From positions 1 through 29,804 of IMG/VR virus record IMGVR_UViG_3300007734_000553: 29,804 nt of DNA. One strand, 5' to 3'. Source of the DNA: a virus. Numbering within the stretch: the stretch's first letter is position 1; every line of letters begins with the position of its first letter. The translations under genes were made by a program, and so were the position numbers. Below the pieces are notes generated by a model. It saw nothing but the letters and a program-made list of their open reading frames with translations, did no database searches and had not been told where the DNA came from. Shown piece after piece: positions 1 to 29,804 of the stretch.

Positions 1-296
1 GAGATCGAGGCACCCGTGCACACCGATCGGTACGTCATGGGCGTGGACGTCGGCGGCGGCGTTGGTGGGGACTACTCGACCATCGCCGTGGTGAGCGTGG
101 CGACCCGACAGCCGGTCTTCACTTGCCGCAGCAACAGGGCATCCCCTGCCGCATGGGCGCACAAGGTCATTCAGGTGGCCAGCCGCTACAACCAAGCCAT
201 GGTTTTGGCCGAGAGCAACAACCACGGCCACGCGCTTCTACAAGAACTCGACAACTGCGGCTATCGCAACCAGTGGCGCAATCCCAAGACCGGCAA
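1..296. repeat. Left copy of contig-end overlap (matches 29509-29804)
   Basis: Bases 1-296 align without gaps to 29509-29804. I count 11 differences (positions 51, 129, 153, 204, 231, 234, 235, 237, 238, 240, 246), seven of them within 231-246. The overlap lies inside the terminase gene, so it marks closure of a circular or circularly permuted assembly rather than a true repeat inside the virion genome. The differences suggest that two co-occurring strains were joined. Confidence 0.9.
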
Positions 297-615
297 GCCT
301 TGGGTCACCACGCTGCAAAGCAAGCTCGAAGCCTACGACACCCTGCGAGAGGCCCTCCCGATCATCAAGGTCATGGATCGCGTGACCTGGATGGAATTGC
401 GCAGCCTCACGATTCCTTCGGGCAAGGTCGCACCGGAGGCCCCTGGAGGGTGCTACGATGACTCTGCGATGGCGATGGCCCTGGCCCTCAGGTGCCTCGC
501 AGACGTGCCCGCATCATGGCGTGCCGCCCCCGTGGTGGCCACCCGCACCCGGGTCGATGCCCTGATCTCCGCCAGCCGAGCCCGGCGCATCCGCTCCGCC
601 AATCTGCCCTTCTGA
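1..615 (+). CDS. terL: Terminase large subunit, C-terminal part (gene cut by contig end)
   Basis: This is the nuclease half of the DNA-packaging motor, which cuts concatemeric phage DNA and works with the portal. The reading frame is open from base 1 and continues the gene that starts at 28567; joined through the repeated ends the protein is 518 residues, a normal terminase length. RNase H-fold nuclease acidic residues are visible: the Asp in GVDVGG (about residue 330 of the joined protein), the Glu in AESNNHG (about 385) and the paired Asp in YDDSAM (about 467-468). The stop at 613-615 is merged with a GAGG ribosome site for the portal gene at 625. An apparent GTG start at 16 is internal and should not be used. 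Function is from established terminase motifs; the joining is inferred from the end overlap. Confidence 0.93.
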   Translation, partial: EIEAPVHTDRYVMGVDVGGGVGGDYSTIAVVSVATRQPVFTCRSNRASPAAWAHKVIQVASRYNQAMVLAESNNHGHALLQELDNCGYRNQWRNPKTGKPWVTTLQSKLEAYDTLREALPIIKVMDRVTWMELRSLTIPSGKVAPEAPGGCYDDSAMAMALALRCLADVPASWRAAPVVATRTRVDALISASRARRIRSANLPF

Positions 616-2265: not shown

Positions 2266-2766
2266 ATGCCCATCACCATCATCGCCTCCAAGAAGCTCCC
2301 CACCGAGCTCAAGTCGACCGCCGAAGAGGCGGACACCGCCATGGGTGAGGGCATCGCGGCCCTGATCCCGGCCCCTGAGAAGCCCTACAACCCCAAGGTG
2401 GTCACCGCCCTGGCCCAGGCCACCGCCAGCGTGGCGAAGCTCCTGGGACTCGACGTGAAGGCCGAATCGTACTCGGGCCCCGTGGCGGAGCTGGACCCCG
2501 ACCTGGCCCGGTTCCTGGCCATGCTGGAGAAGGCCGCCGCCGACTACGGCCAGCCGTTCCCCACGACCCTCGACTCCATCAAGGGCGACGGCGACCTCAC
2601 CGCGATCACCGCCCACCTGATCGGCCTCGCCAAGGATCGCGACTTCAAGGCGTTTCTCGCTGAGCCCGCCCCGGGCGAGTCTGTCGGCTCTGAAATGGGC
2701 GAAGAGATGGGCGGCTCGGAAGAGGAAGAGAAGAAGCCCTTCAACTTCGCCGCCCGGATGAAGTAG
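2266..2766 (+). CDS. Hypothetical protein between portal and scaffold, acidic tail
   Basis: I do not recognise this 166-residue protein. It begins three bases after the portal stop, with GAGGAG (2254-2259) inside the end of the portal gene as its ribosome site, so it is translationally coupled. The N-terminal two thirds are Ala-rich and predicted helical. The C-terminal 35 residues are strongly acidic (Glu/Gly-rich, with an EEEE run) and end in a short basic segment. Its place between portal and scaffold suggests a role in head assembly, for example as a scaffold-associated factor. That is an inference from position and composition only. Confidence 0.8.
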   Translation: MPITIIASKKLPTELKSTAEEADTAMGEGIAALIPAPEKPYNPKVVTALAQATASVAKLLGLDVKAESYSGPVAELDPDLARFLAMLEKAAADYGQPFPTTLDSIKGDGDLTAITAHLIGLAKDRDFKAFLAEPAPGESVGSEMGEEMGGSEEEEKKPFNFAARMK

Positions 2767-2770
2767 TCCA

Positions 2771-3241
2771 ATGCCAAGCGCGTTCGCATCGCTCGCTCAA
2801 AAGGTCAAGGCCGCCCTCGGATTTGGCCCCGGCAGTGATCGGTACAACGTCCCCACCACCCGTGGGGCGCAGTACCGAACCATGGCCGGCGGGCCGATGG
2901 CGAACCTGCAAGACGCCATCGAACGTCGCCAGCCATGCGCGTTCTTCTACGACGACAAGACGTCGGATGGCTCAGGGATGCGCCTTGGCAACCCCCACGC
3001 CATATGGGCCGCCACGAACGGATCGAAGTACCTGCATATGTACGTCGATCCTCGCTCGGCGACGGCCTCTGGCAGCCTGCCAGGGTGGCGCACGTTCTTA
3101 GTGGACCGCATCCGCGATGTGTCGGTCTATGACCTGGGCACCAACCTCTTTGGCCGCGCCCAAGAATTCAATGTCGCCCCCGGCTACAACCCGGGGTGGT
3201 ACTCTCGCAACGGCCGCCCGATCGTCTTGGTCGGGCGGTAA
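2771..3241 (+). CDS. WYL-like domain protein in the head module
   Basis: This 156-residue protein carries a pattern that resembles the WYL domain, an Sm-like beta-barrel best known as a ligand sensor in bacterial regulators. The visible parts are DAIERRQPCAFFYDD (about 48-62), then an Arg and Pro before the strand around KYLHMYVDP (about 86-94), then WRTFLVDRIRDVSV (about 106-119), which matches the usual F-x-x-D-R-I signature. No DNA-binding helix-turn-helix is attached. The gene sits between a portal-associated gene and the scaffold, starting five bases after the previous stop, so it is probably expressed with the head genes. Possible roles are a minor virion component or a regulator carried with late genes. 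The domain call is moderate; the role is unknown. Confidence 0.78.
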   Translation: MPSAFASLAQKVKAALGFGPGSDRYNVPTTRGAQYRTMAGGPMANLQDAIERRQPCAFFYDDKTSDGSGMRLGNPHAIWAATNGSKYLHMYVDPRSATASGSLPGWRTFLVDRIRDVSVYDLGTNLFGRAQEFNVAPGYNPGWYSRNGRPIVLVGR

Positions 3242-3264: not shown

Positions 3265-4056
3265 GTGACCACCCAGCCCATGACCAACGAGCAGATCGCC
3301 GCCGTCCTCTCCCAAGGTGAGGCCCCCGCCCCCCAAGGCGAGCCCGCCCGCGCAGCGCCCAAGGGTGGGGCCACGGCCCAAGAGCCGAGTCCCCCGGAGA
3401 CTGAGCCCGCGCCCAAGAGCAAACTCTCCTGGGAAGAGGCGGTGAAGACGGTTCCGCCCGACGTCGCCACGCTGATGCGAAACTTGCACGGCGAGTACAC
3501 CAAGAAGTCGCAGGAGTTGAGCCAGCTCAAGAAGGAATCGCGCCGTGAGCGTGAGGCCATGCTCAACGGCTCGAAGGAGATCTTGACCGGCCAGCCGAAG
3601 CCGCTCCCCGCCTACGACCCTTTCGATGAGTCGACCGTGCAGGCCCGTGTCGAGGCGGAGGTGCAGCGTCGCCTTCAGGAAGTTCTCGCCCCGATGCAGC
3701 AGGAGTACGAGGTGCTGGCGGCCGAAGAGTCGTACCGGGACTTCGTCTCCGCCAACCCCGATTTCGAGGCCGATACGGCCCTGCGCAACGCCGTGCAGGT
3801 GGCCCTTGAGGCCAACCCCTCACTCGATTTGGAGACCGCCTATTGGGCCGTCAAAGGCAAAATGGCGACCCAGGAGCGGGTGAAGGCTGAGGCCAAGGCC
3901 AAGGCCGAGAAGGAAGCAGCGAAGAAGGCGGCCCTCACCGGCACCGGACTGCCCCGCAAGGCGGGTGATCCCCGCGCCCCCGGCGTCGATCAACTCAAGA
4001 AGATGAGCAACGCTGATCTCCTGGCCCACGCGAAGGCGCTCAACGGCATCCGTTGA
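3265..4056 (+). CDS. Capsid scaffolding protein
   Basis: This 263-residue protein lies directly upstream of the major capsid gene, the standard place for the scaffold that guides prohead assembly and is then lost. It is hydrophilic, with an Ala/Pro/Glu-rich N-terminus, a charged helical or coiled-coil stretch (KKSQELSQLKKESRRERE, about 73-90), a Glu/Gln-rich middle and a Lys/Ala helix near the C-terminus. I chose the GTG at 3265 because TGGAG lies at 3254-3258 at good spacing; a longer in-frame start at 3196 would overlap the previous gene by 46 bases and lacks a ribosome site. The stop codon lies within the -35 box of the capsid promoter. No protease domain is visible, so scaffold removal is not explained by this gene. 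Confidence 0.86.
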   Translation: MTTQPMTNEQIAAVLSQGEAPAPQGEPARAAPKGGATAQEPSPPETEPAPKSKLSWEEAVKTVPPDVATLMRNLHGEYTKKSQELSQLKKESRREREAMLNGSKEILTGQPKPLPAYDPFDESTVQARVEAEVQRRLQEVLAPMQQEYEVLAAEESYRDFVSANPDFEADTALRNAVQVALEANPSLDLETAYWAVKGKMATQERVKAEAKAKAEKEAAKKAALTGTGLPRKAGDPRAPGVDQLKKMSNADLLAHAKALNGIR

Positions 4057-4081: not shown

Positions 4082-4230
4082 ACAGGTAGCGGCAGGCACC
4101 GCGAGCCCACCCCACCCATAGTGTGGGAGGCCACCCGACGGTGCCTGATGCCATAAGCCCCTCGGCACTCCCTGGGAAGGGAACACGCCCCAAGTTCTTC
4201 TCGAAGACCCCTTCCCAATAGGAGCGCCCC
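4082..4230 (+). promoter_or_regulatory. Structured 5' leader of the capsid mRNA
   Basis: This 149-base gene-free stretch can fold into nested stems. CAGGCACCG (4093-4101) pairs perfectly with CGGTGCCTG (4139-4147) and encloses a CCCAC/GTGGG hairpin. GGGAAGGG (4174-4181) pairs with CCCTTCCC (4209-4216), ending four bases before the AGGAG ribosome site (4220-4224). Such a leader could stabilise the abundant capsid transcript or tune initiation. The pairing is read directly; the function is inferred. Confidence 0.6.
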
Positions 4231-5915: not shown

Positions 5916-7277
5916 GTGAACCTCGGGAACCTTCGCAGCTTTTGCGGCAATCTCCTCGACTACGACCCCACGAACGCGACGTACACGGCGCAGCTCACCG
6001 CGTTCCTGAACGACGCCCAGGCGCGAATCCTCACGGACAAGCCGTGGGACTTCTGCCAGCGCGAAGGCGACGTCGACGTGCGCAACGATCAACCCGTGAC
6101 CGGGCTCGGCCTCGTCAACGGCTCGGCCACCGTCACCGGCGCGCTCTTTCCCCTGTCGATCAACCCGATCCTGCCCGGCAGCCTTTGGGACGGGTCCACC
6201 CTCGTCATCGGCTCCGAGTCCTACCAGATCGCTTGGGTCAGCGCGGCCAACACGCTGTACTTGACCACCGAGTTTCGCGGCACCAGCGGCACCTACGCCG
6301 GCACCGTCAAGAGCCGCGAGATCTACCTGCCCGCCGATACGGCCAGCGTCATGTCGGTGCTCGACAAGAGCCGCGGCATCCCCGTGCCCCAGGCGATGAT
6401 CTCGAAGTTCGAGCGCGACACGGCCCGCCTGGACCCGAACCTGCTGGGTGTCGCTGAGTGCTTCCTGCCCAGCCAAGGGCGTCGCATACCCGCCCCCCGT
6501 GCGGTCAACGGGGTGGCCATCACCACGCCCGGCGCGGGCCGCGGTGTCCGCACGCTCAACATCTACATGGTCAACGTGATCGGCCCCGCCCATCGCTTGG
6601 GCAGTCTCTACCGAGAGGATGCCAGCGCGGGGTTTGAGTCCGGTCTCTCCGCCGTGCAGACCATCACCCTGGCCGACAACCAAGAGATCACGCTCACCCC
6701 CGAGACGCTGCCCAACCTCACCGGGCTGTATCGGCGGTACTACTTCACGTGCCCCGACCTCGGCATCAACGCCCCCGTGCGTTTGGTGCACGCCGCGAAT
6801 TCGCCCCCTGGGCTCAACGTGGACACGGTCTCGCCTGCGGGCGGTGTGACCCTCGCCCCGAACACCAGCGTGGCCACGATCACGTCCCAGACCTTTCAAT
6901 CGCGGTCCATTCGGTACGTGCGCAGCAACGGGGTCTACCAGAGCATCCTGCTCTATCCGCACCCCAACCTGAATGCGTCGAACGCCTTCGCCGTGCGCCG
7001 TCTGGTGTCCCCGAGCGCCATGGAAGAGGACCAGGACGTGCCGCTGGTGCCGGAATCCTTCGCGCAGATCATCGCCTATGCCGCGATGGAACAGCTCGCG
7101 ATGAAGGTCAACAACATGGCCTTGGCCCAGGCCTACGCCCGCAAGCGCGACGTGTTGTACCAGAGCATGGAGGCGCGGTACCTGGGCATCGCCCCGCGGC
7201 GCATCGTCAAGGGAGACGGGGTGACCGGCCAGCGGTTCTATCCCAATCCCTTCGGCCCGCTCACCTTCACCCCCTGA
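5916..7277 (+). CDS. Head-tail adaptor / tail tubular A-like protein
   Basis: This 453-residue protein begins the tail module. The N-terminus (NLRSFCGNLLDYDP, then AFLNDAQARILTDKPWDF) and the C-terminal helical part (about 370-430, SFAQIIAYAAMEQLAMKVNN followed by ALAQAYARKRDVLYQSMEARYLG) resemble adaptor proteins such as T7 gp11, which sit under the portal and carry the nozzle. Between them lies a long beta-rich insertion (about 50-360) not typical of the shortest family members; T7 gp11 is under half this length, so extra domains are present. I chose GTG at 5916 because a G-rich ribosome site (GGGGTGG) precedes it. Its position just before the nozzle gene supports the call. The assignment is inferred from order and ends of the protein. 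Confidence 0.75.
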   Translation: MNLGNLRSFCGNLLDYDPTNATYTAQLTAFLNDAQARILTDKPWDFCQREGDVDVRNDQPVTGLGLVNGSATVTGALFPLSINPILPGSLWDGSTLVIGSESYQIAWVSAANTLYLTTEFRGTSGTYAGTVKSREIYLPADTASVMSVLDKSRGIPVPQAMISKFERDTARLDPNLLGVAECFLPSQGRRIPAPRAVNGVAITTPGAGRGVRTLNIYMVNVIGPAHRLGSLYREDASAGFESGLSAVQTITLADNQEITLTPETLPNLTGLYRRYYFTCPDLGINAPVRLVHAANSPPGLNVDTVSPAGGVTLAPNTSVATITSQTFQSRSIRYVRSNGVYQSILLYPHPNLNASNAFAVRRLVSPSAMEEDQDVPLVPESFAQIIAYAAMEQLAMKVNNMALAQAYARKRDVLYQSMEARYLGIAPRRIVKGDGVTGQRFYPNPFGPLTFTP

Positions 7278-17300: not shown

Positions 17301-18782
17301 TTGCCCGTGGTGAGCCTGGCCACCATCGGCGCATCGCGCACCCTCGGGGGCCTCGCCCGCACGGCCTTGAAGGCCCCGGCCACGTTCGCGGACGCCGTGC
17401 GCGGCGCGTTCGGTGTCGTCAAGACCGAAGGACGCGCGCTGGGGGCAGGGATCACCACCCCATCGGGCATCCGGTACACCCCGGCCCAAATCGAGAACTT
17501 GATCAACCAGTATGGCATCGGGCTCAGCGAAATCGACGTGAGCCGCCGCGCCGCGCTGGCCGATGATTTGCTGCGCGACGCGCGGCAGACGGAGCGTGGG
17601 GCCACCGCCGCGGCTGTGGGTGCCTTCTCGCCGAAGCCCTGGGCCAAGAGCTTCTGGATGCGCTACGCCGAGGCCACCGAGCTCTCGTTCCGGCGCAGCG
17701 TGTTCGAGGGTGCCTTGGCGAACGGCGCATCGCCCGCCGAAGCCAGCGACCTCGCCCGCCGCAGCCTCTTCGACTATCAGGCGGTGCCTGACGTCGTTCG
17801 GGAGACGATCGGGAATATCTTGGCCGGTGCGGCGACTGACTATGCTGTGATGCAAGAATTCGCCATCTCCGCTGTGCAGAATCCGACTGTCTTCGGCCGA
17901 GCGGCCAAGGCAAAGCTGGCCAGCCAGCGGCAGAATGATCCCTACGGCTACTACGGCGACAAGGGATTGAAGTCGCTTGGGATCTTCCCGGTGCCCAACC
18001 CCGTGGGCGAATCCTACGTCTATGGCCCGGAGGTGCCCATCTTCGCCCCGGTCGAGGATGCCCTGGCTCTCGTGCGCAGCGCCGACAAGACCATCACCAC
18101 GATCATCGGGGCCTACCGTCTCGCCAAGAAGCTGGACGCGGCGGCCACCGTCGAGGAGATCGGCCGTACGGGCATGGAGGGCGCGACCGCGGCGGTCGAA
18201 CGCTACTATCCGCAGGTCATGGCGGCCTTCGAGGCGTCGAATGGCGCCCCATCGGCAGACGGGAAGCCCGCCAAGTTGACCCTCGACGACAACGGGCTCT
18301 TTTGGGCCGCGTTGCTGGCCGCAGATATTCAAGAACGCCAGGGCAACCCGGGCCTCAAGGCCACCGTCTACCGACTCCTCGATCCTGAGATCGTGCCGCC
18401 CCCGGCCCAGTTCGCGATCCAGGAGCCTGGCTACGAAGATATGTGGGCGATTCAGCCGCCCGGCGGCATCCCGCATATCTATGCCGGCACCTACAACGGC
18501 GAGCCCGTGTTCAAGGTCTACCGGCCGAGCAAGCGGGGGATCGCGAACATCAAGACGATTCGCGCGCTCGCACCGAAGGTTCTCGAAAACGCGGTTGGTC
18601 CGGCGGTCGCGCTGGCCGAGGCGAAGTACGCTGGCGGGGTCACCACCGCCCCGCTGTTCCCCACGGGGGTCGGGCCCGCGCTCGGCATGTACTCAGGAAT
18701 CGTGACGCCGGCCCCGACGCCGGAGCAGCGGCGCACGGCAATGGAAGAGGGCGTCCGCGTTGTGCGGGAGCCCTCAAAGTAG
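14388..18782 (+). CDS. Large ejection (internal virion) protein, gp16-like
   Basis: At 1464 residues this is the largest gene, about 15% of the genome, and the usual third member of the ejection set. In T7 the equivalent protein (about 1300 residues) forms the inner-membrane part of the ejection channel. The N-terminal 200 residues are Ala/Glu/Arg-rich with Pro-rich linkers; the body is helical. A Gly/Ala/Leu-rich hydrophobic stretch near residues 955-985 (NLPYLAYKAAALPVVSLATI) could insert in a membrane. The last 250 residues contain Tyr/Pro-rich parts (PYGYYGDKGLKSLGIFPVPN, then EVPIFAP). I saw no clear lytic transglycosylase motif. It overlaps the upstream stop by one base (GGGGAG at 14375-14380 is the ribosome site), and its TAG stop forms the start of a promoter block. 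Confidence 0.8.
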   Translation: MAEMTDEELEFELQLARDLRNKRRALAAAASAAQPVIQPVEITPFRPVADVEAELAAQAEKVAQEAYARAAEPPTSSAEVAAYLAQRRAEEEARIARQRGQVVTVGRETAPTPASESAIPMFRPTRIREVPVPSETPEPPAAIRSLLPAPTVAAPYRMDATVRLYRDPTTGELRPPTTSEEIIESFAQQPVMSEEQARARGEQIRRAEDTAAALAAAGKPIPADLKSQMAPKVSGVLTQPQGMGRGVTETALGATLRAVPSYLSALASEGYFRGLGYEVDDQGLPVDPTDLAYQVAQIRQKLGIPETATAMDVVTGTAKKLGVELDPRAAAMSPLSAVPLPIPGFATRSQARVPTAVDPEGRRAAAATDEALRNVARNVTAGRSMGDEFLAVPALRQAYIDRYGDERAAFWAGTAGDIIIPAGPGTAARMATKAVKTAAATEAAATVAKGVIRAAEAVPNSAMLGAAADLAAITTKGAASEGRIVRSVARAAIDDLPGLSEEARTAAKAAIKPTDETIQDVVRSVTTAKPEGLRGAEFKKALVQRVPDDLVLATETVAVPRKIASEVKAATAAISAEFTAADDAGKIKILQSKGLNPLAKVLGANPFATLDPQWQRIIMERLASAEAIEAAPRIAREARVPATVRVADEITSLNTQLRATAVPWRDSYLARATAALKPGAGARAEVATVARAKRAIEGASGRAVARVRDAIQADVKAGATVDQAIDKLVSNGIPGARIEPPSPASAWRAIVSEVYGPDRVEFVLNQIDELSRVGALPPKLTSSLPTIEGLRTADKALLRINAVPMGRPDFQKAALKFVFEDVVRSQIAKEGVEFEALARAELPNLPSDVPSGATNPAAWAKFLDDAATDASKIMLRNPDEAITRAVPFLGGGQVTRVYDTLASADEAKLAEGGREFVDMIASIEPAKRLGLGNLLAESTGWTARAMRNSLHGAKYGYYLPNLPYLAYKAAALPVVSLATIGASRTLGGLARTALKAPATFADAVRGAFGVVKTEGRALGAGITTPSGIRYTPAQIENLINQYGIGLSEIDVSRRAALADDLLRDARQTERGATAAAVGAFSPKPWAKSFWMRYAEATELSFRRSVFEGALANGASPAEASDLARRSLFDYQAVPDVVRETIGNILAGAATDYAVMQEFAISAVQNPTVFGRAAKAKLASQRQNDPYGYYGDKGLKSLGIFPVPNPVGESYVYGPEVPIFAPVEDALALVRSADKTITTIIGAYRLAKKLDAAATVEEIGRTGMEGATAAVERYYPQVMAAFEASNGAPSADGKPAKLTLDDNGLFWAALLAADIQERQGNPGLKATVYRLLDPEIVPPPAQFAIQEPGYEDMWAIQPPGGIPHIYAGTYNGEPVFKVYRPSKRGIANIKTIRALAPKVLENAVGPAVALAEAKYAGGVTTAPLFPTGVGPALGMYSGIVTPAPTPEQRRTAMEEGVRVVREPSK

Positions 18783-18790
18783 GCTATAGT
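18760..18790 (+). promoter_or_regulatory. Promoter of the fibre genes with shared TAGGCTATAGTC block
   Basis: TATAGT (18785-18790) serves as the -10, inside the 12-base block TAGGCTATAGTC (18780-18791) that also occurs at 28034-28045. A weak -35, TTGTGC, is at 18760-18765 with 19-base spacing. The block begins with the stop codon of the large ejection gene. It lies 36 bases before the start of 18826, which has GAGGAGGG as ribosome site. Confidence 0.55.
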
Positions 18791-18825
18791 CTCAGCAGTC
18801 GCCGTCCACGCTGAGGAGGGACACC

Positions 18826-19245
18826 ATGGGTTCGCGGATCTATCACTACCTGCACGCCGTTCAGTCTACTGGCACCACGGGTCTCACGACCGCGTTCCCG
18901 GCCACCCCCACCCGCACGATCGACCTGACCGGCGGCCAGACCGTGATCCCGAGCAGCCGGTGGGTCAACTTCATCGAGTCGCTGCTCCTGTGGGTCGACA
19001 CGATCGCCGCGGGCGCGACGAAGATCACGATGCGGCTGACCGCGGACGCCGCCGGCGATCAGTGCATCATCCCCGACGTGCAGGCCACCCTGGCCACGGG
19101 CATCACGACCGCCACGAAGGGTTCGGTTGCCTTCTCGTGTGGCTTCGCCCTGCCGCAGGTGACCTCGGCCACCGTCTATCTTTGGTGCAAGACCGACGCC
19201 GGAACCTGCAACCTGGGCACGGCCACGCTCACCTGGAAGGAGTGA
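18826..19245 (+). CDS. Probable virion protein, beta-rich (unknown)
   Basis: This is a 139-residue protein with repeated Thr/Ala/Gly-rich strand-like segments (TGTTGLTTAFPATPTRTIDL, about 15-34; VTSATVYLWCKTDAGTC, about 112-128). It is not recognised as a named family. The strong GAGGAGGG ribosome site (18813-18820) and a promoter just upstream suggest high expression. It leads a group of genes for fibre-like proteins, three bases before the next start, so a small fibre, hinge or capsid-decorating protein is likely. The four Cys residues give no zinc-finger pattern. Confidence 0.72.
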   Translation: MGSRIYHYLHAVQSTGTTGLTTAFPATPTRTIDLTGGQTVIPSSRWVNFIESLLLWVDTIAAGATKITMRLTADAAGDQCIIPDVQATLATGITTATKGSVAFSCGFALPQVTSATVYLWCKTDAGTCNLGTATLTWKE

Positions 19246-24926: not shown

Positions 24927-27284
24927 ATGATCACCAACGCCACTGTAGCCCATTCGTATACACCGGTCGACAATATCGTTGAATTTGGGGTGAACGTGTC
25001 CCCCGAAGTGACCGGATTTCCCGTCGAGTGGCGCAAGGGGTTGGGTGGCCACGCGCCATGGCCCCGTCCGCCGAGTGGCCTGCACCACGTGCGAGACACG
25101 CATGATGGTGGACGTAAGGCCACCACCGGACTCTTCGATGGGCAGCAGCGGGATCGGGCCAGCCTGATCGCCGTGGACTGTATCGGGCTCGATGCGGACG
25201 CCGCAGATTGGATGGTGGCCACGGGTCAGCACCCGTCTACGGAAGCAGCCAAGGCGATCATGCACCGGCAATCGGCGAATGATGCCGAGGCCTTGAACGC
25301 AGCTTTGACGGTGCATCGCCGCGTGATCCTGGGGTTGATCGAGGCCGCTGGTTACCCGCCACCCACGCGCATCGTGCACTCCGGCTACGGCCTGCATCTG
25401 TGGTGGCACTTGGATTCCCCCGTGTGGAAGTCCAACGCCAGCGATTGGGCGAGCATTCAATTCGCGGCCCCCATGATGATCGCGAAAATCAACGAGACCG
25501 CCGGGTGGCACGCGATGGACCCCGCGGCCAAAGATGGCGGCACCCGGTTGTTGGCCGTGCCTGGAATGCACAACGTCAAAGGACACGCGAAGCGGTTGGT
25601 CATGGTCTCGGGGTGGTCCGAAACCCGGCTCACGATCGCCCAGGTGGAGTCTTGGATCGGGGTGCGCATCCAAGTCGATCCGATCACTGGACGGGTGCGC
25701 AAATCCCGCCCAGGGCCACTGCAGGGGGGTGCGCGATCCCCGATCGAGTTCGTTGATCTCAGCGCGCCTGAGTACCGGATGCCCGACGGGCGGTCCATGC
25801 TGGCGTGGATTCAAGAGCTCGCCCCGGGATCGGAGCGGGTGGGGTGCCCCGCGCCCGGTGGGCGCGATGGCAAGAATTCGATCACACTGCACCGCGAGAC
25901 GCCAGGGCACCCGTGGGAGTGGTGGGCCCACGACTTCGGGCGGGATCGCAACCTGGTTCACGCCCCCACGGCCCCCGAGGCCCCTGAGGGGGCCAGGGGG
26001 GGGCTCACCCTCGTCGAGAATGGCGATGAACACGGAATCGCCCCCGTTAGTCTATATACAACAACACCACATAAGACTAACGGGGGCGATTCCCACCCCA
26101 TCGGCATTCTCGACGAGGTAGGGCCCCCCCCTGGGCCAACCCCGGCCCCCGCCACCCCTGTGGCGCCCGTCCTCATCGAGCCTTCGCTCGAAGACACCGC
26201 CGCTCAGATCGCCGCCGCTAAGTTGGCCCCCGCCACACAACGCGATGCGTTCACCCCCGATGAGCTGGACCAATTGTTGGAGGGGGCCATCGCCGAAGCC
26301 ATCGGTGAGCCCGTTCCGCCCACCAAGCCGTATTCGACTGCCGCGGTTCGGTTCGCGGACTCCCGTAAGGCGATGGTGTGCACGCGGGCCCCTTGGCTGC
26401 ACTCCGCCAAGACTGGCGATCACGAGGCCCTGGCGATGCGTCTGGTGTGTCGCTCTCGCCGGTGCCCCGACTGTGCGCCCCTCCTCACAGCCGCGGCTGT
26501 AGGGGCCGTGGAGGCCACGCTGGGGGCCTTGTTCGCCAATGGGGCCGGGCTCCTTCGTGCGTGGCGTGTGCTCATCCTGCCGAACCTGGGCGATGACACC
26601 CGATTGGGCAGGTGGGCCGATGCCGCCCCCCGTGATCGGCACTACTTGACCATCGCGACCACGGCCACCACGACCCACACGTTCGTCATGTACCGAAGTA
26701 ACTTCCTCAACGAAGCGGGAAACGAGGTGCACCGCCCGCAGCGGTCTAAGACGAAGCCATCGCGGCTCGATCAATTGCTCGATGATGCCGTCGAGTACCG
26801 GGTGCCCTCGATGACTCGGTGGATCATTCAGCACGCATCGAAGCTCGTGGAATCCATCGACGTGGACTCGTGGGACTCCAAGCAGATTCGCCCGATTCGT
26901 GGGCGCGGTTGGCTGATCAAGACCATCATGATGGTGCGCAATGCCCTGCTCGGCATTCAGCCGGAGTCCACCGAGAAGGACCCCGATCGCGTCTCGATCG
27001 TGTCCCATATGACGCCGAAGGAGGTGCAGCGCCTCGCGGAAGAGACGGCGCTCGCATCGATCGCCGCAGAGCAGACCACCCAAGGCACCAAAATCGGGGC
27101 CGTCATCGCGACCCGGGTGCGGTGGGGGTTCGGGTCGGACCCCACGCCTGCCGGCACGATCCTGGAGGGACTGATCGAATCGGGGGCCATTCCCCGTGTG
27201 CGCGCCAAGCGCGGCACCAAGCCCCGGCAGGGCCCGACCGCATGGGATGACGCCTTCGAATGGATCGAGGGCACCGAACGCTAA
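24927..27284 (+). CDS. AEP-type primase fused to zinc-finger C-terminal part (replication protein)
   Basis: At 785 residues this is the only clear replication gene. The N-terminal part carries the three archaeo-eukaryotic primase motifs: acidic LDAD (Asp89, Asp91) after IAVD, the HSGYGLHLWW block (Gly153, Gly155, His157), and Asp198/Asp203 followed by TRLLAVPGMHNVKG (205-219), where most relatives have a PGT-x-N-x-K motif. Residues about 356-404 form a Pro/Gly-rich linker encoded by a large DNA palindrome. The C-terminal part starts with a likely zinc site (Cys485, His492, His499, Cys508, Cys513, Cys516; CRSRRCPDC) and a long region of unknown fold; no Walker A motif or HUH motif was found. 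The zinc part recalls plasmid replication initiators. It probably binds the origin and primes for the host polymerase. GAGGA precedes ATG 24927. Confidence 0.82.
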   Translation: MITNATVAHSYTPVDNIVEFGVNVSPEVTGFPVEWRKGLGGHAPWPRPPSGLHHVRDTHDGGRKATTGLFDGQQRDRASLIAVDCIGLDADAADWMVATGQHPSTEAAKAIMHRQSANDAEALNAALTVHRRVILGLIEAAGYPPPTRIVHSGYGLHLWWHLDSPVWKSNASDWASIQFAAPMMIAKINETAGWHAMDPAAKDGGTRLLAVPGMHNVKGHAKRLVMVSGWSETRLTIAQVESWIGVRIQVDPITGRVRKSRPGPLQGGARSPIEFVDLSAPEYRMPDGRSMLAWIQELAPGSERVGCPAPGGRDGKNSITLHRETPGHPWEWWAHDFGRDRNLVHAPTAPEAPEGARGGLTLVENGDEHGIAPVSLYTTTPHKTNGGDSHPIGILDEVGPPPGPTPAPATPVAPVLIEPSLEDTAAQIAAAKLAPATQRDAFTPDELDQLLEGAIAEAIGEPVPPTKPYSTAAVRFADSRKAMVCTRAPWLHSAKTGDHEALAMRLVCRSRRCPDCAPLLTAAAVGAVEATLGALFANGAGLLRAWRVLILPNLGDDTRLGRWADAAPRDRHYLTIATTATTTHTFVMYRSNFLNEAGNEVHRPQRSKTKPSRLDQLLDDAVEYRVPSMTRWIIQHASKLVESIDVDSWDSKQIRPIRGRGWLIKTIMMVRNALLGIQPESTEKDPDRVSIVSHMTPKEVQRLAEETALASIAAEQTTQGTKIGAVIATRVRWGFGSDPTPAGTILEGLIESGAIPRVRAKRGTKPRQGPTAWDDAFEWIEGTER
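25992..26137. repeat. Large imperfect palindrome inside the primase gene (candidate origin element)
   Basis: A perfect 20-bp stem (26034-26053 with 26074-26093) surrounds a 20-base AT-rich loop (26054-26073, containing CTATATAC at its edge). After a 5-base mismatched bubble, a second stem of 20 pairs with one mismatch (26009-26028 with 26099-26118) follows. A third, GC-only part has runs of eight G (25996-26003) facing eight C (26124-26131). Arms together are about 55-60 bases each. It is in frame and encodes the linker of the primase. It could be the replication origin, an inserted palindromic element or a transcript processing site. Confidence 0.85.
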
Positions 27285-27299
27285 AACCTTTCCCCTTCG

Positions 27300-27328
27300 T
27301 TGACCCAACCCACCACCCCCGATACATT
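27300..27328 (+). promoter_or_regulatory. Sigma70-like promoter for sigma-like gene
   Basis: TTGACC (27300-27305) and TACATT (27323-27328) are 17 bases apart, a near-consensus sigma70 arrangement in the short gap between primase and the 186-residue gene. It would place transcription start near 27335, about 26 bases before the ATG. Confidence 0.68.
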
Positions 27329-27360: not shown

Positions 27361-27921
27361 ATGTTTGATGAGTGGGACCCATGCGCGTGGGCGGCAGACG
27401 TGGCGACGGCGGTGGCGGCCGATGAGGCCCTGGTGGCCCAAGTCCACGAAGTGTGTGCCAGCCCCCCATGGCATGAACCCCAATGGGCCAAACGCCTGGC
27501 CATCGAGGTCCCACGGCTCGCGACGGGCGCGTGTGGCGCGCGTGCCCTGCCCTACATGCCGCTCGAAGACGTCATCGCCGAATTGCAGGCCACGCTGATC
27601 ACCCGAAGCCAGAGCGCCGCATCCCGATGGGACCCAACCAGGGGCCGCACAACATGGACCGGGTGGGCCTGCATGGTCATGCGCTCCCGATTCCTGAACC
27701 TGGTGCGCGGGACCAACACCCCAACGGCCAAGTGCATCAGCTTCGCCAACGAGATGCAGGTGGAGGACTGGAGCGCGGACAGCCACCCCTACGATGAAGA
27801 CGATAGCCCCTGGTTGAGCAGCAAGGGGAAGCGGCCATCCAGAGCGGGCCAGCGGCGCACTGGACGCCCAATGGGCCGCCCTCGCAAGCACCCGAAGCCC
27901 CACACCGCCCCCGCCTTGTAA
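27361..27921 (+). CDS. Sigma-region-2-like protein with AT-hook-like tail
   Basis: This is a 186-residue protein. Residues about 68-118 (LEDVIAELQATLITRSQSAA, then SRWDPTRGRTTWTGWACMVM) resemble the sigma70 region 2 core, in which an Asp-Pro-x-Arg-Gly turn follows a helix and precedes the -10-binding helix. Region 4, the usual -35-binding part, is not evident. Instead the C-terminus has TGRPMGRPRKHPKP (167-180), similar to an AT-hook, a minor-groove binder. Such a protein could redirect host RNA polymerase to late promoters. It has its own promoter and a GGGGGA ribosome site, and is followed by a hairpin. An alternative is a non-sigma DNA-binding protein. The call is moderate. Confidence 0.68.
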   Translation: MFDEWDPCAWAADVATAVAADEALVAQVHEVCASPPWHEPQWAKRLAIEVPRLATGACGARALPYMPLEDVIAELQATLITRSQSAASRWDPTRGRTTWTGWACMVMRSRFLNLVRGTNTPTAKCISFANEMQVEDWSADSHPYDEDDSPWLSSKGKRPSRAGQRRTGRPMGRPRKHPKPHTAPAL

Positions 27922-27923
27922 AA

Positions 27924-27956
27924 CGCCTTGTAGGGGCACCCACGGCCCCTACGGCG
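27924..27956 (+). terminator. Hairpin ending the replication/regulatory operon
   Basis: GTAGGGGC (27930-27937) pairs perfectly with GCCCCTAC (27945-27952); CGCC (27924-27927) with GGCG (27953-27956) extends the stem past a two-base bulge. It lies directly after the stop of the sigma-like gene. No T-run follows, but position suggests transcription ends here before the late promoter. Confidence 0.55.
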
Positions 27957-28017: not shown

Positions 28018-28044
28018 TTGACTGCCCCAAAAATAGGCTATAGT
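28018..28044 (+). promoter_or_regulatory. Promoter of the packaging/late operon with shared TAGGCTATAGTC block
   Basis: TTGACT (28018-28023) and TATAGT (28039-28044) are 15 bases apart. The -10 lies in TAGGCTATAGTC (28034-28045), identical to the block at 18780-18791. The surrounding 27960-28050 stretch is AT-rich for this genome and includes TACTA/TAGTA inverted bases (27996-28018) that might be an operator. It drives the gene at 28070 and, by read-through, terminase and head genes. Confidence 0.65.
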
Positions 28045-28069
28045 CGATAGTAGACCGGCGAGGTGGTTA

Positions 28070-28570
28070 GTGAAATGCCCTGCGTGTGGCGGCAAGACCC
28101 GTACTCAGCAGACGATCCCAGCAGAGAACCGCAACGATGGGCGCGTGTACCGCACCCGAAAGTGTCTGGAAGAAGGGTGCGGGACGCTGTCCTCGACCTT
28201 GGAGATCTATCACTCCGAACGGAACCTCGTCTTGATGGAGGGGGCCGCCCAACCCGCCGCCCCCACCGCCCCGGTCCCCGTGGTGGCCATCCCGATGGCG
28301 GCCCCTGGTACCTGCCTCTTCGACCTGGAAGGTGGTTTGGAGAAGGGACTGAAGCAGGCTGTCGCGTGCATCGTCGATGCCGTGGACACAACCAAGCCTG
28401 CCCCAGACAAGGTGCGCGTCGACGCCGCCAAGTGGCTCATCGAAGATCGCCGGAAATGGCGCATCGCCACCGCCCAGCAACTCAACCAGGCTGGCACCAC
28501 CCCCGCGGACCCCGCCATGGCCGAGCTCACTGGCATCCTGCGGTTGCTGCCACTTGAGGCGTCCGCGTGA
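28070..28570 (+). CDS. Zinc-ribbon protein, candidate small terminase subunit
   Basis: This 166-residue protein sits directly before the large terminase and overlaps its start, the usual place of the small terminase that recognises the packaging site. The N-terminus is a zinc ribbon: CPAC (Cys3, Cys6) and RKCLEEGC (Cys32, Cys37), with a spacing and an Arg-rich lead (VYRTRKC) reminiscent of NrdR. A Pro/Ala linker (about 62-84) leads to a helical C-terminal part (about 90-160; VRVDAAKWLIEDRRKWRIAT) that resembles helical segments of small terminases. GTG 28070 is preferred, since it keeps the first Cys pair and has GAGG (28059-28063) upstream. The small-terminase role is inferred from place; a transcription regulator is the alternative. 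Confidence 0.72.
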   Translation: MKCPACGGKTRTQQTIPAENRNDGRVYRTRKCLEEGCGTLSSTLEIYHSERNLVLMEGAAQPAAPTAPVPVVAIPMAAPGTCLFDLEGGLEKGLKQAVACIVDAVDTTKPAPDKVRVDAAKWLIEDRRKWRIATAQQLNQAGTTPADPAMAELTGILRLLPLEASA

Positions 28571-29804
28571 CCGTGTGGACCCCGCCCAGCATCCCTACGT
28601 CGATGCAGGGGCAAGCGAAGCGATTGGTTGGAGATCTCGGGCTGTTCGCCCGTCTGCACAAAGTCCAAGACAAGGACAGCAAGGCCGAGATCCCGTTCGA
28701 TCCCCTGCCGATGCAGACGAAGATCTTCGCGGCCATCGCCGCTGGGCACCGCCGCATCATCGTGTGCAAAGCGCGGCAGGTCGCCGCCACCACGGCTTGC
28801 AAGATGGCCCTGCACCATCTCGCCTACACAACGCCGAACGCGGCGATGCACGCCGTGGTGTCCATGCGCGCCGATTCGGCCACCAGCCTCATGGACGACA
28901 ACCGCCGGTGGGTCGGCCACTTGCCCCAAGCGTTGCGCCGCACCCTCAAAGTCAACGCACGCGGCGAGCTGGTCTATGCGGAGACGGGCGCAGGGATCAA
29001 GGCTTTCACTTCAAGATCTACGACCGGTCTGCGATCGTATGCGCCATCGGCCGTGCTCATCTCCGAGCACGCCTATGCCCCCGATCAAGATGAACTGCTG
29101 GCCCAGGCCACGGCGGCCGTAGGCGATGGGCTCTTGATCGTTGAGAGCACGGCCAACGCGCCCGGTGACGCCTTCAGCCGGCTGGTTCAGGGGGCGCCAG
29201 ACAACGGCTGGCACCTGATTACCATGTGGTGGTGGGAGCACCCGGCCTATGAAGACCTGGAGCCCGCCGAAGATCTGAGCCCCGCTGAGTTGCAGCTTCA
29301 GACCGCATACAACCTGACCCTGGGCCAACTGCACTGGCGCAGGCGGCAAGTGGCGACGCTGGGCGAGCACAAGTTCCGGCGTGAGTATCCAGCCAACCTC
29401 GATGACTGCTTCGTGTCGCGCAGCGGTGGTTACTTCGATGATCAAGCCTTGGGCACGGACGCGATTCATGTACTCGATTTCGCCGCGATCGGCGAAGACG
29501 GCGCACGAGAGATCGAGGCACCCGTGCACACCGATCGGTACGTCATGGGCGTGGACGTAGGCGGCGGCGTTGGTGGGGACTACTCGACCATCGCCGTGGT
29601 GAGCGTGGCGACCCGACAGCCGGTCTTCACTTGCCGTAGCAACAGGGCATCCCCTGCCGCTTGGGCGCACAAGGTCATTCAGGTGGCCAGCCGCTACAAC
29701 CAAGCCATGGTCTTGGCCGAGAGCAACAACCACGGCCATGCCTTGATTCAAGAGCTCGACAACTGCGGCTATCGCAACCAGTGGCGCAATCCCAAGACCG
29801 GCAA
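28567..29804 (+). CDS. terL: Terminase large subunit, N-terminal part (gene cut by contig end)
   Basis: This is the ATPase half of the packaging motor. GTG 28567 overlaps the upstream TGA, giving coupled synthesis with the candidate small subunit. Motifs in order: adenine-binding Gln in FDPLPMQTKIF (Gln50), Walker A-like KARQVAATT (68-76), Walker B LISEHA (164-169) with the Ser-Glu variant of the usual Asp-Glu (Glu167 catalytic), and coupling motif VESTAN (192-197). The nuclease domain starts at about 320 and reappears at the left end of the window. The frame is open to the last base; joined to 1-615 it gives 518 residues. The Ser-Glu variant is known in other phage terminases, so it is not a defect. 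Confidence 0.93.
   Translation, partial: MTVWTPPSIPTSMQGQAKRLVGDLGLFARLHKVQDKDSKAEIPFDPLPMQTKIFAAIAAGHRRIIVCKARQVAATTACKMALHHLAYTTPNAAMHAVVSMRADSATSLMDDNRRWVGHLPQALRRTLKVNARGELVYAETGAGIKAFTSRSTTGLRSYAPSAVLISEHAYAPDQDELLAQATAAVGDGLLIVESTANAPGDAFSRLVQGAPDNGWHLITMWWWEHPAYEDLEPAEDLSPAELQLQTAYNLTLGQLHWRRRQVATLGEHKFRREYPANLDDCFVSRSGGYFDDQALGTDAIHVLDFAAIGEDGAREIEAPVHTDRYVMGVDVGGGVGGDYSTIAVVSVATRQPVFTCRSNRASPAAWAHKVIQVASRYNQAMVLAESNNHGHALIQELDNCGYRNQWRNPKTG
29509..29804. repeat. Right copy of contig-end overlap (matches 1-296)
   Basis: These 296 bases repeat the left end with 11 substitutions and no gaps. The last 50 bases are identical to 247-296. Over the aligned reading frame nine codons differ, eight of them silently and one as Leu to Ile. 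This shows assembly closure through two diverged alleles of the terminase gene. Confidence 0.9.

Follow-up and report, generated by a model that had tools for sequence, protein, structure and literature searches.

Sigma factors normally join the reading of the -10 and -35 promoter elements in one chain. Just ahead of the DNA-packaging genes (terS-like and terL) of the phage studied here lies a gene for a small protein that a preliminary description had read as a minimal sigma factor, with the promoter -10-binding core of sigma70 and an AT-hook in place of region 4. Could such a protein direct transcription of the phage late genes, and what would then stand in for the missing regions? We analysed the whole of the 29,804-base IMG/VR virus record that carries the gene, referred to below as the window. 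The two ends of the window (bases 1-296 and 29509-29804) differ in 10 of 297 aligned columns (97% identity), and the gene for the large terminase is split across them, running off the right end and continuing at the left. The matching ends and the continued terminase gene suggest that the window probably represents a nearly complete genome of ~29.5 kb in circularly permuted form; the differences between the ends perhaps reflect an assembly that joined two variants of such a genome. PHROGs matches in the window comprise terminase, portal, scaffold, major head protein, internal virion protein and endolysin, and no match to an RNA polymerase was obtained among the window ORFs scanned. Shortly after the portal gene, an odd location for a regulator domain, a gene at 2771-3241 (+) has a WYL domain whose match (E 4.6e-6) clears the Pfam cut-off. 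The upstream neighbour of the gene under study, at 24927-27284 (+), encodes 785 aa that weakly match a DNA polymerase/primase family (phrog_2478, E 8.5e-4) and for which the viral contigs yielded no relatives. The features of the locus are collected in Table 1.

Table 1. Coordinates of the features discussed, numbered from the first base of the window
Feature	Position	Strand	Basis
Second element copy, GCCCTCAAAGTAGGCTATAGTC, upstream of 18826	18770..18791	+	repeat search
Possible host sigma70 promoter, TTGACC-17-TACATT, ahead of the sigma2-like gene	27300..27328	+	weak
Gene for sigma-region-2-like protein, 186 aa	27361..27921	+	ORF; homologs in L025 and L126
Conserved core, aa 37-117, sigma region-2-like three-helix domain	27469..27711	+	model, PDB matches, profile test
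WDPTRG turn, aa 90-95	27628..27645	+	D91, P92 and G95 invariant in three homologs; matches FDPERG of RpoS
AT-hook-like GRPMGRPRK, aa 168-176, in basic disordered tail	27862..27888	+	sequence; absent from both homologs
Putative late promoter element, GCCCCAAAAATAGGCTATAGTC, upstream of the terS-like gene	28024..28045	+	repeat search
Zinc-ribbon protein at the small-terminase position (terS-like)	28070..28570	+	32% identity to L025 counterpart
Large terminase	28567..29804, continued at 1..615	+	ORF and family matches

Judged by its conservation, the ORF is a real gene, since homologs with 39-44% identity occur in two other uncultured phage lineages, one represented by the loci L025 and L026 and the other by L126. 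It begins with ATG at 27361, with GGGGGA 5' of the start, and just 3' of its stop lies an 8-base perfect inverted repeat (GTAGGGGC/GCCCCTAC, 27930-27952), possibly a terminator that has no T run. The scan that yielded the possible host promoter ahead of the gene found this one site where 2.6 were expected by chance. L025 and L026 share the same 133-aa homolog ORF (41% identity over 114 aa, E 6e-24), located 0.6-1.0 kb upstream of the terminase, and the 172-aa homolog of L126 was found with a DNA pattern built on the conserved residues WxxWAxMVM. The homolog genes lie directly upstream of the terS-like gene and terL or one gene away. Residues invariant in the three homologs include D91, P92, G95, R96, T97, W99, W102, A103, M105, V106, M107, R110, N113 and R116.

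The family is rare. Among 18 related records searched whole, which were selected from the loci then gathered, two carry it, both of the L025 type. In the viral contigs, a single-protein scan with the window protein retrieved no relative, and the A1 and A2 profiles together with two DNA patterns retrieved L025/L026 and L126 alone; besides the three proteins of the family, a motif scan of 18,531 ORFs returned a single unrelated ORF. The genome contigs gave no hit in a pattern scan and no relative in 177 candidate stretches of a profile scan. No credible match was obtained by tblastn against 50,697 phage records, where the best E-values were 2 for the window protein and 5 for the L126 protein, with none for the L025 protein.

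To what kind of protein does the family belong? Scans of the 186-aa protein against Pfam and PHROGs at E-values up to 10 gave no match of any kind. Pfam Sigma70_r2 (PF04542) had no match in a six-frame search of the window, compared with matches in 11 of 14 control genomes, and failed likewise in all 18 related records; because Pfam does not detect the protein, we term it sigma2-like rather than a Sigma70_r2 member. The PDB sequences of sigma factors also gave no match to it. A plain HMM of E. coli region 2 scored the window ORF at E 8.2, rank 6 among 13,192 reported ORFs, with its relatives at ranks 67, 122 and 143. We then aligned the core of the three-protein family with hhalign to the region-2 blocks of six E. 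coli sigma factors. With all columns the score was 28.4 (E 9.7e-5, probability 58%). With gap-poor columns it was 27.5, a value reached by none of 400 column-shuffled sigma profiles, the top shuffle scoring 19.3. The alignment places WDPTRG on the FDPERG of RpoS and W99..W102 on the F..Y of region 2.3. By eye, an acidic residue (E/D/E in the three homologs) falls at the place of sigma70 E407, and W..W preserves the F..Y/W spacing of region 2.3. In region 2 helix pattern and residue spacing, the core is like ECF and primary sigma70 factors. Unlike them, the protein is below Pfam detection and carries no regions 3 and 4.

The predicted fold points the same way. In an AlphaFold2 model of the window protein, for which two sequences were supplied, pLDDT is mostly 70-85 in the core, which has helices at 41-55, 68-84 and 99-116. 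Sigma factors made up 41 of 50 rows among the matches listed by Foldseek against the PDB, the other nine being chorismate mutases, serine acetyltransferases and a dehydrogenase, and none had a significant E-value (all 0.7 or worse). VIA alignment of 301 Foldseek chains gave 87 with Z of at least 5; all 50 rows among the matches listed are sigma chains by title (Z 5.7-7.2), led by 8b3z_C (Z 7.2, 74 residues, rmsd 2.4) and including T4 gp55 (7d7c_F, Z 6.5, 76 residues, rmsd 3.3), although every Z is under 8, below the trust level of the tool, and may reflect merely a common arrangement. The top two rows of a BFVD fold search are named sigma factors, but with E 0.14 or worse and in a mixed list. 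Profile comparison and structure prediction, with 0/400 shuffles and listed fold rows almost only from sigma region 2, support the resemblance in the original reading of WDPTRG and its flanking helices. Collectively, these results suggest that the core (~37-117) is likely a remote homolog of sigma70 region 2.

L126 encodes a second small sigma2-like protein, P0010, at 2736-3143 (-), between its terS-like gene and terL. P0010 is a paralog of the family (hhalign 93.9%, E 1.5e-7) and contains EDVEQEL and WNPARGAFSTW, motifs that by eye are closer than those of the family proteins to the textbook region-2 pattern. Alone against the sigma blocks it was weak, its score being reached by 8 of 400 shuffles. 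Neither this paralog nor the HTH protein described below had a tblastn match at E 1 in the 50,697 phage records.

After the core, the window protein has a tail of only 69 residues; there is no region 4 in the protein, nor region 3. Disorder is predicted for the tail (pLDDT < 50 at 119-174), in which GRPRK (aa 172-176, 27874-27888) presents a GRP core with basic flanks. This motif, picked after being seen, arose in 0.036% of shuffles of the tail and occurs in 4 of 5702 six-frame ORFs of at least 100 aa, including the window ORF and its L001 copy. The tail of the L126 homolog is basic and has no GRPRK, and the L025 homolog has no such tail. An AT-hook instead of region 4 therefore describes the layout of the window protein correctly and is not a family trait. 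We found no paper linking an AT-hook with sigma factor region 2 in a phage.

In place of the AT-hook, the relatives offer a neighbouring gene. In both L025 and L126 the sigma2-like gene overlaps a gene for an HTH protein of 202-250 aa. The HTH gene precedes the sigma2-like gene in L025, with an ATGA overlap at 5978-5981, and follows it in L126, with a 14-base overlap from a TTG start at 4224 that was placed by alignment with L025. BLASTP identifies the two HTH proteins as homologs of each other (E 9e-19 and 1e-25). Homologs that have no AT-hook and do have an HTH gene next door suggest that the family may be a split sigma factor, in which case the AT-hook may be a window-only substitute for the partner, or may be unrelated. 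A literature search on split sigma factors in phages gave nothing relevant among the matches listed, and one on two-subunit sigma factors and bacteriophage late promoters gave a review on jumbo phages (PMC7824862).

The window phage might still have a two-subunit sigma factor, with a region-4 partner gene present in the window but diverged beyond recognition and an AT-hook tail that is incidental. This alternative overlaps the explanation that we prefer, as both take the protein to be a sigma2 subunit. The overlapping HTH gene in both other lineages speaks for it, as do the match of the L126 HTH protein to Sigma70_r4_2 (3.2e-5, 23.9 bits, just under the cut-off of 25.7) and the VIA result for the central part of its model, where sigma region 4 fills 17 of 29 rows and 17 of the top 19 (Z up to 5.5). 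Against it, no match to the partner profile among 405 six-frame window ORFs had an E below 2.3, and the likeness of the partner to region 4 is itself weak: shuffles reached the profile control score in 15 of 300 cases for the central part and 3 of 300 for the C-terminal part, the L126 model is of low confidence (mean pLDDT 51), and its Foldseek E-values are 3 or worse. Given the weak profile control, we treat the region-4 identity of the partner as a lead rather than a result. The L025 HTH protein had no sigma match (best HTH_28 at 0.015), and Pfam on 10 further window ORFs gave no convincing HTH (best weak HTH_39 at 0.17). Overall, a hidden partner in the window seems possible, at odds of well under one half. 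Somewhat more doubtful still is the fuller evolutionary version, in which a phage family with overlapping sigma2 and sigma4-like genes, in either order, would have given rise to a window lineage that lost the sigma4 gene, with the AT-hook tail replacing its grip on DNA and the late promoters being read by the -10 block alone.

Which promoters might the protein read? TAGGCTATAGTC occurs exactly twice in the window, at 18780 and 28034, with no other occurrence at up to two mismatches. The two surrounding copies agree at 19 of 22 positions (GCCC..AAA.TAGGCTATAGTC), and no common -35 lies upstream of this block. The late promoters had been described as having identical -10 blocks and weak or oddly spaced -35 boxes; the shared TAGGCTATAGTC and the lack of a shared -35 agree with this, and identity does not extend to the wider block. 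TATAGT precedes the nearest following start codons, at 18826 and 28070, by ~35 and ~25 bp, respectively, and the GCCCTCAAAGTAGGCTATAGTC copy overlaps the stop codon and end of the 14388-18782 gene. The similarity of the copies is by itself not significant, because the genome contains 15 same-strand 22-mer pairs that match each other at least this well; by eye against the ORF list, no other pair has each of its copies shortly before a gene start. The element core was absent from 30 of the 31 loci searched (a set without L126), the one match being L001, the window's own copy, and neither L025 nor L126 has a repeated element of that kind upstream of terS. It is plausible, from these two sites, that the elements are read by the sigma2-like protein.

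The same place carries other repeats in the relatives. At L025:6383-6475, within 93 bp upstream of the terS-like gene, lie all five GTTACG/CGTAAC hexamers of a 30,364-base contig (L025 plus L166), two palindromes included; by its sequence the cluster looks like an operator. Upstream of the terS-like gene of L126 is a perfect 10-base inverted repeat with a 7-base gap (3574-3600). The hexamers and the inverted repeat suggest that the relatives may control this place by other operators.

The repeated element also bears on a different role, in which the sigma2-fold protein would bind host RNA polymerase and displace host sigma, serving as a competitor or anti-host factor. The conserved part is indeed the core-binding region, and the region 2.4-like residues differ by eye from those of sigma70. 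A repeated element ahead of late genes, a location beside the packaging genes and an adjacent HTH gene in the relatives are nevertheless hard to fit to such a role, and we regard it as improbable. Less probable again is a packaging or terminase-associated DNA-binding protein with a borrowed sigma2 fold, which would suit a gene that adjoins terS/terL in all three lineages, and a paralog between the two in L126, but which is at odds with the lack of a homolog at that location in all six informative loci among seven relatives with 61-65% TerL identity (the seventh is too short) and with the fact that RinA/ArpU-type late regulators also lie just upstream of terS in other phages. As these regulators are generally described, the sigma2-like protein is like them in genome position and in a likely late-gene role; they are region-4/HTH-like rather than region-2-like.

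The explanation that we prefer, and hold to be rather better than an even bet, is that the gene product is the sigma2 part of a factor for late phage transcription that acts with host RNA polymerase. The region-2-like core would occupy the docking site of sigma domain 2 on host RNA polymerase. The protein would open, presumably late in infection, the promoters that carry the TAGGCTATAGTC block, one upstream of terS-terL and the structural genes and the other upstream of the gene cluster at 18826. With sigma domains 3 and 4 absent, the overlapping HTH gene of the relatives may supply the contacts to upstream DNA and to the flap; in the window, it may instead be the basic tail with its AT-hook that grips AT-rich DNA upstream.

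Two known systems divide sigma functions in comparable ways. In the T4 late sigma gp55, sigma70 similarity is confined to domain 2, and gp55 with its co-activator gp33 has been called a split sigma (PMC2988020); gp55 works with the sliding clamp via a clamp-binding motif (PMC7892883). Like gp55 (185 aa), the window protein is a small phage protein with sigma similarity limited to domain 2 and a possible link to putative late promoters. It differs in that the family has no sequence match to gp55 (hhalign E 0.21) and that the tail of the window protein is basic with an AT-hook; no clamp gene was recognised among the window ORFs scanned. In SigO-RsoA of Bacillus subtilis, sigma4 and sigma2 are on separate proteins (PMC8103513), an arrangement that we follow here, although the table in PMC10141391 orders the domains differently. 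From their sequences, L126 and L025 may also have sigma4 and sigma2 on separate proteins. Unlike these, SigO-RsoA is a bacterial pair, likened here by description only, and the window has no recognised sigma4 partner. By analogy, the gene pairs of the relatives look like SigO-RsoA, and the window looks like T4 gp55 with an AT-hook tail in the partner's place.

Together, these results suggest that these phages may redirect host RNA polymerase with a sigma factor divided between two proteins. If this is true, a protein overlooked by both Pfam and PHROGs would gain a name, and a ~30 kb phage relying on domain 2 alone, taken with relatives that have an HTH partner in an overlapping gene, would offer a compact natural test of the minimal sigma needed for promoter opening and of the way in which split sigmas arise.
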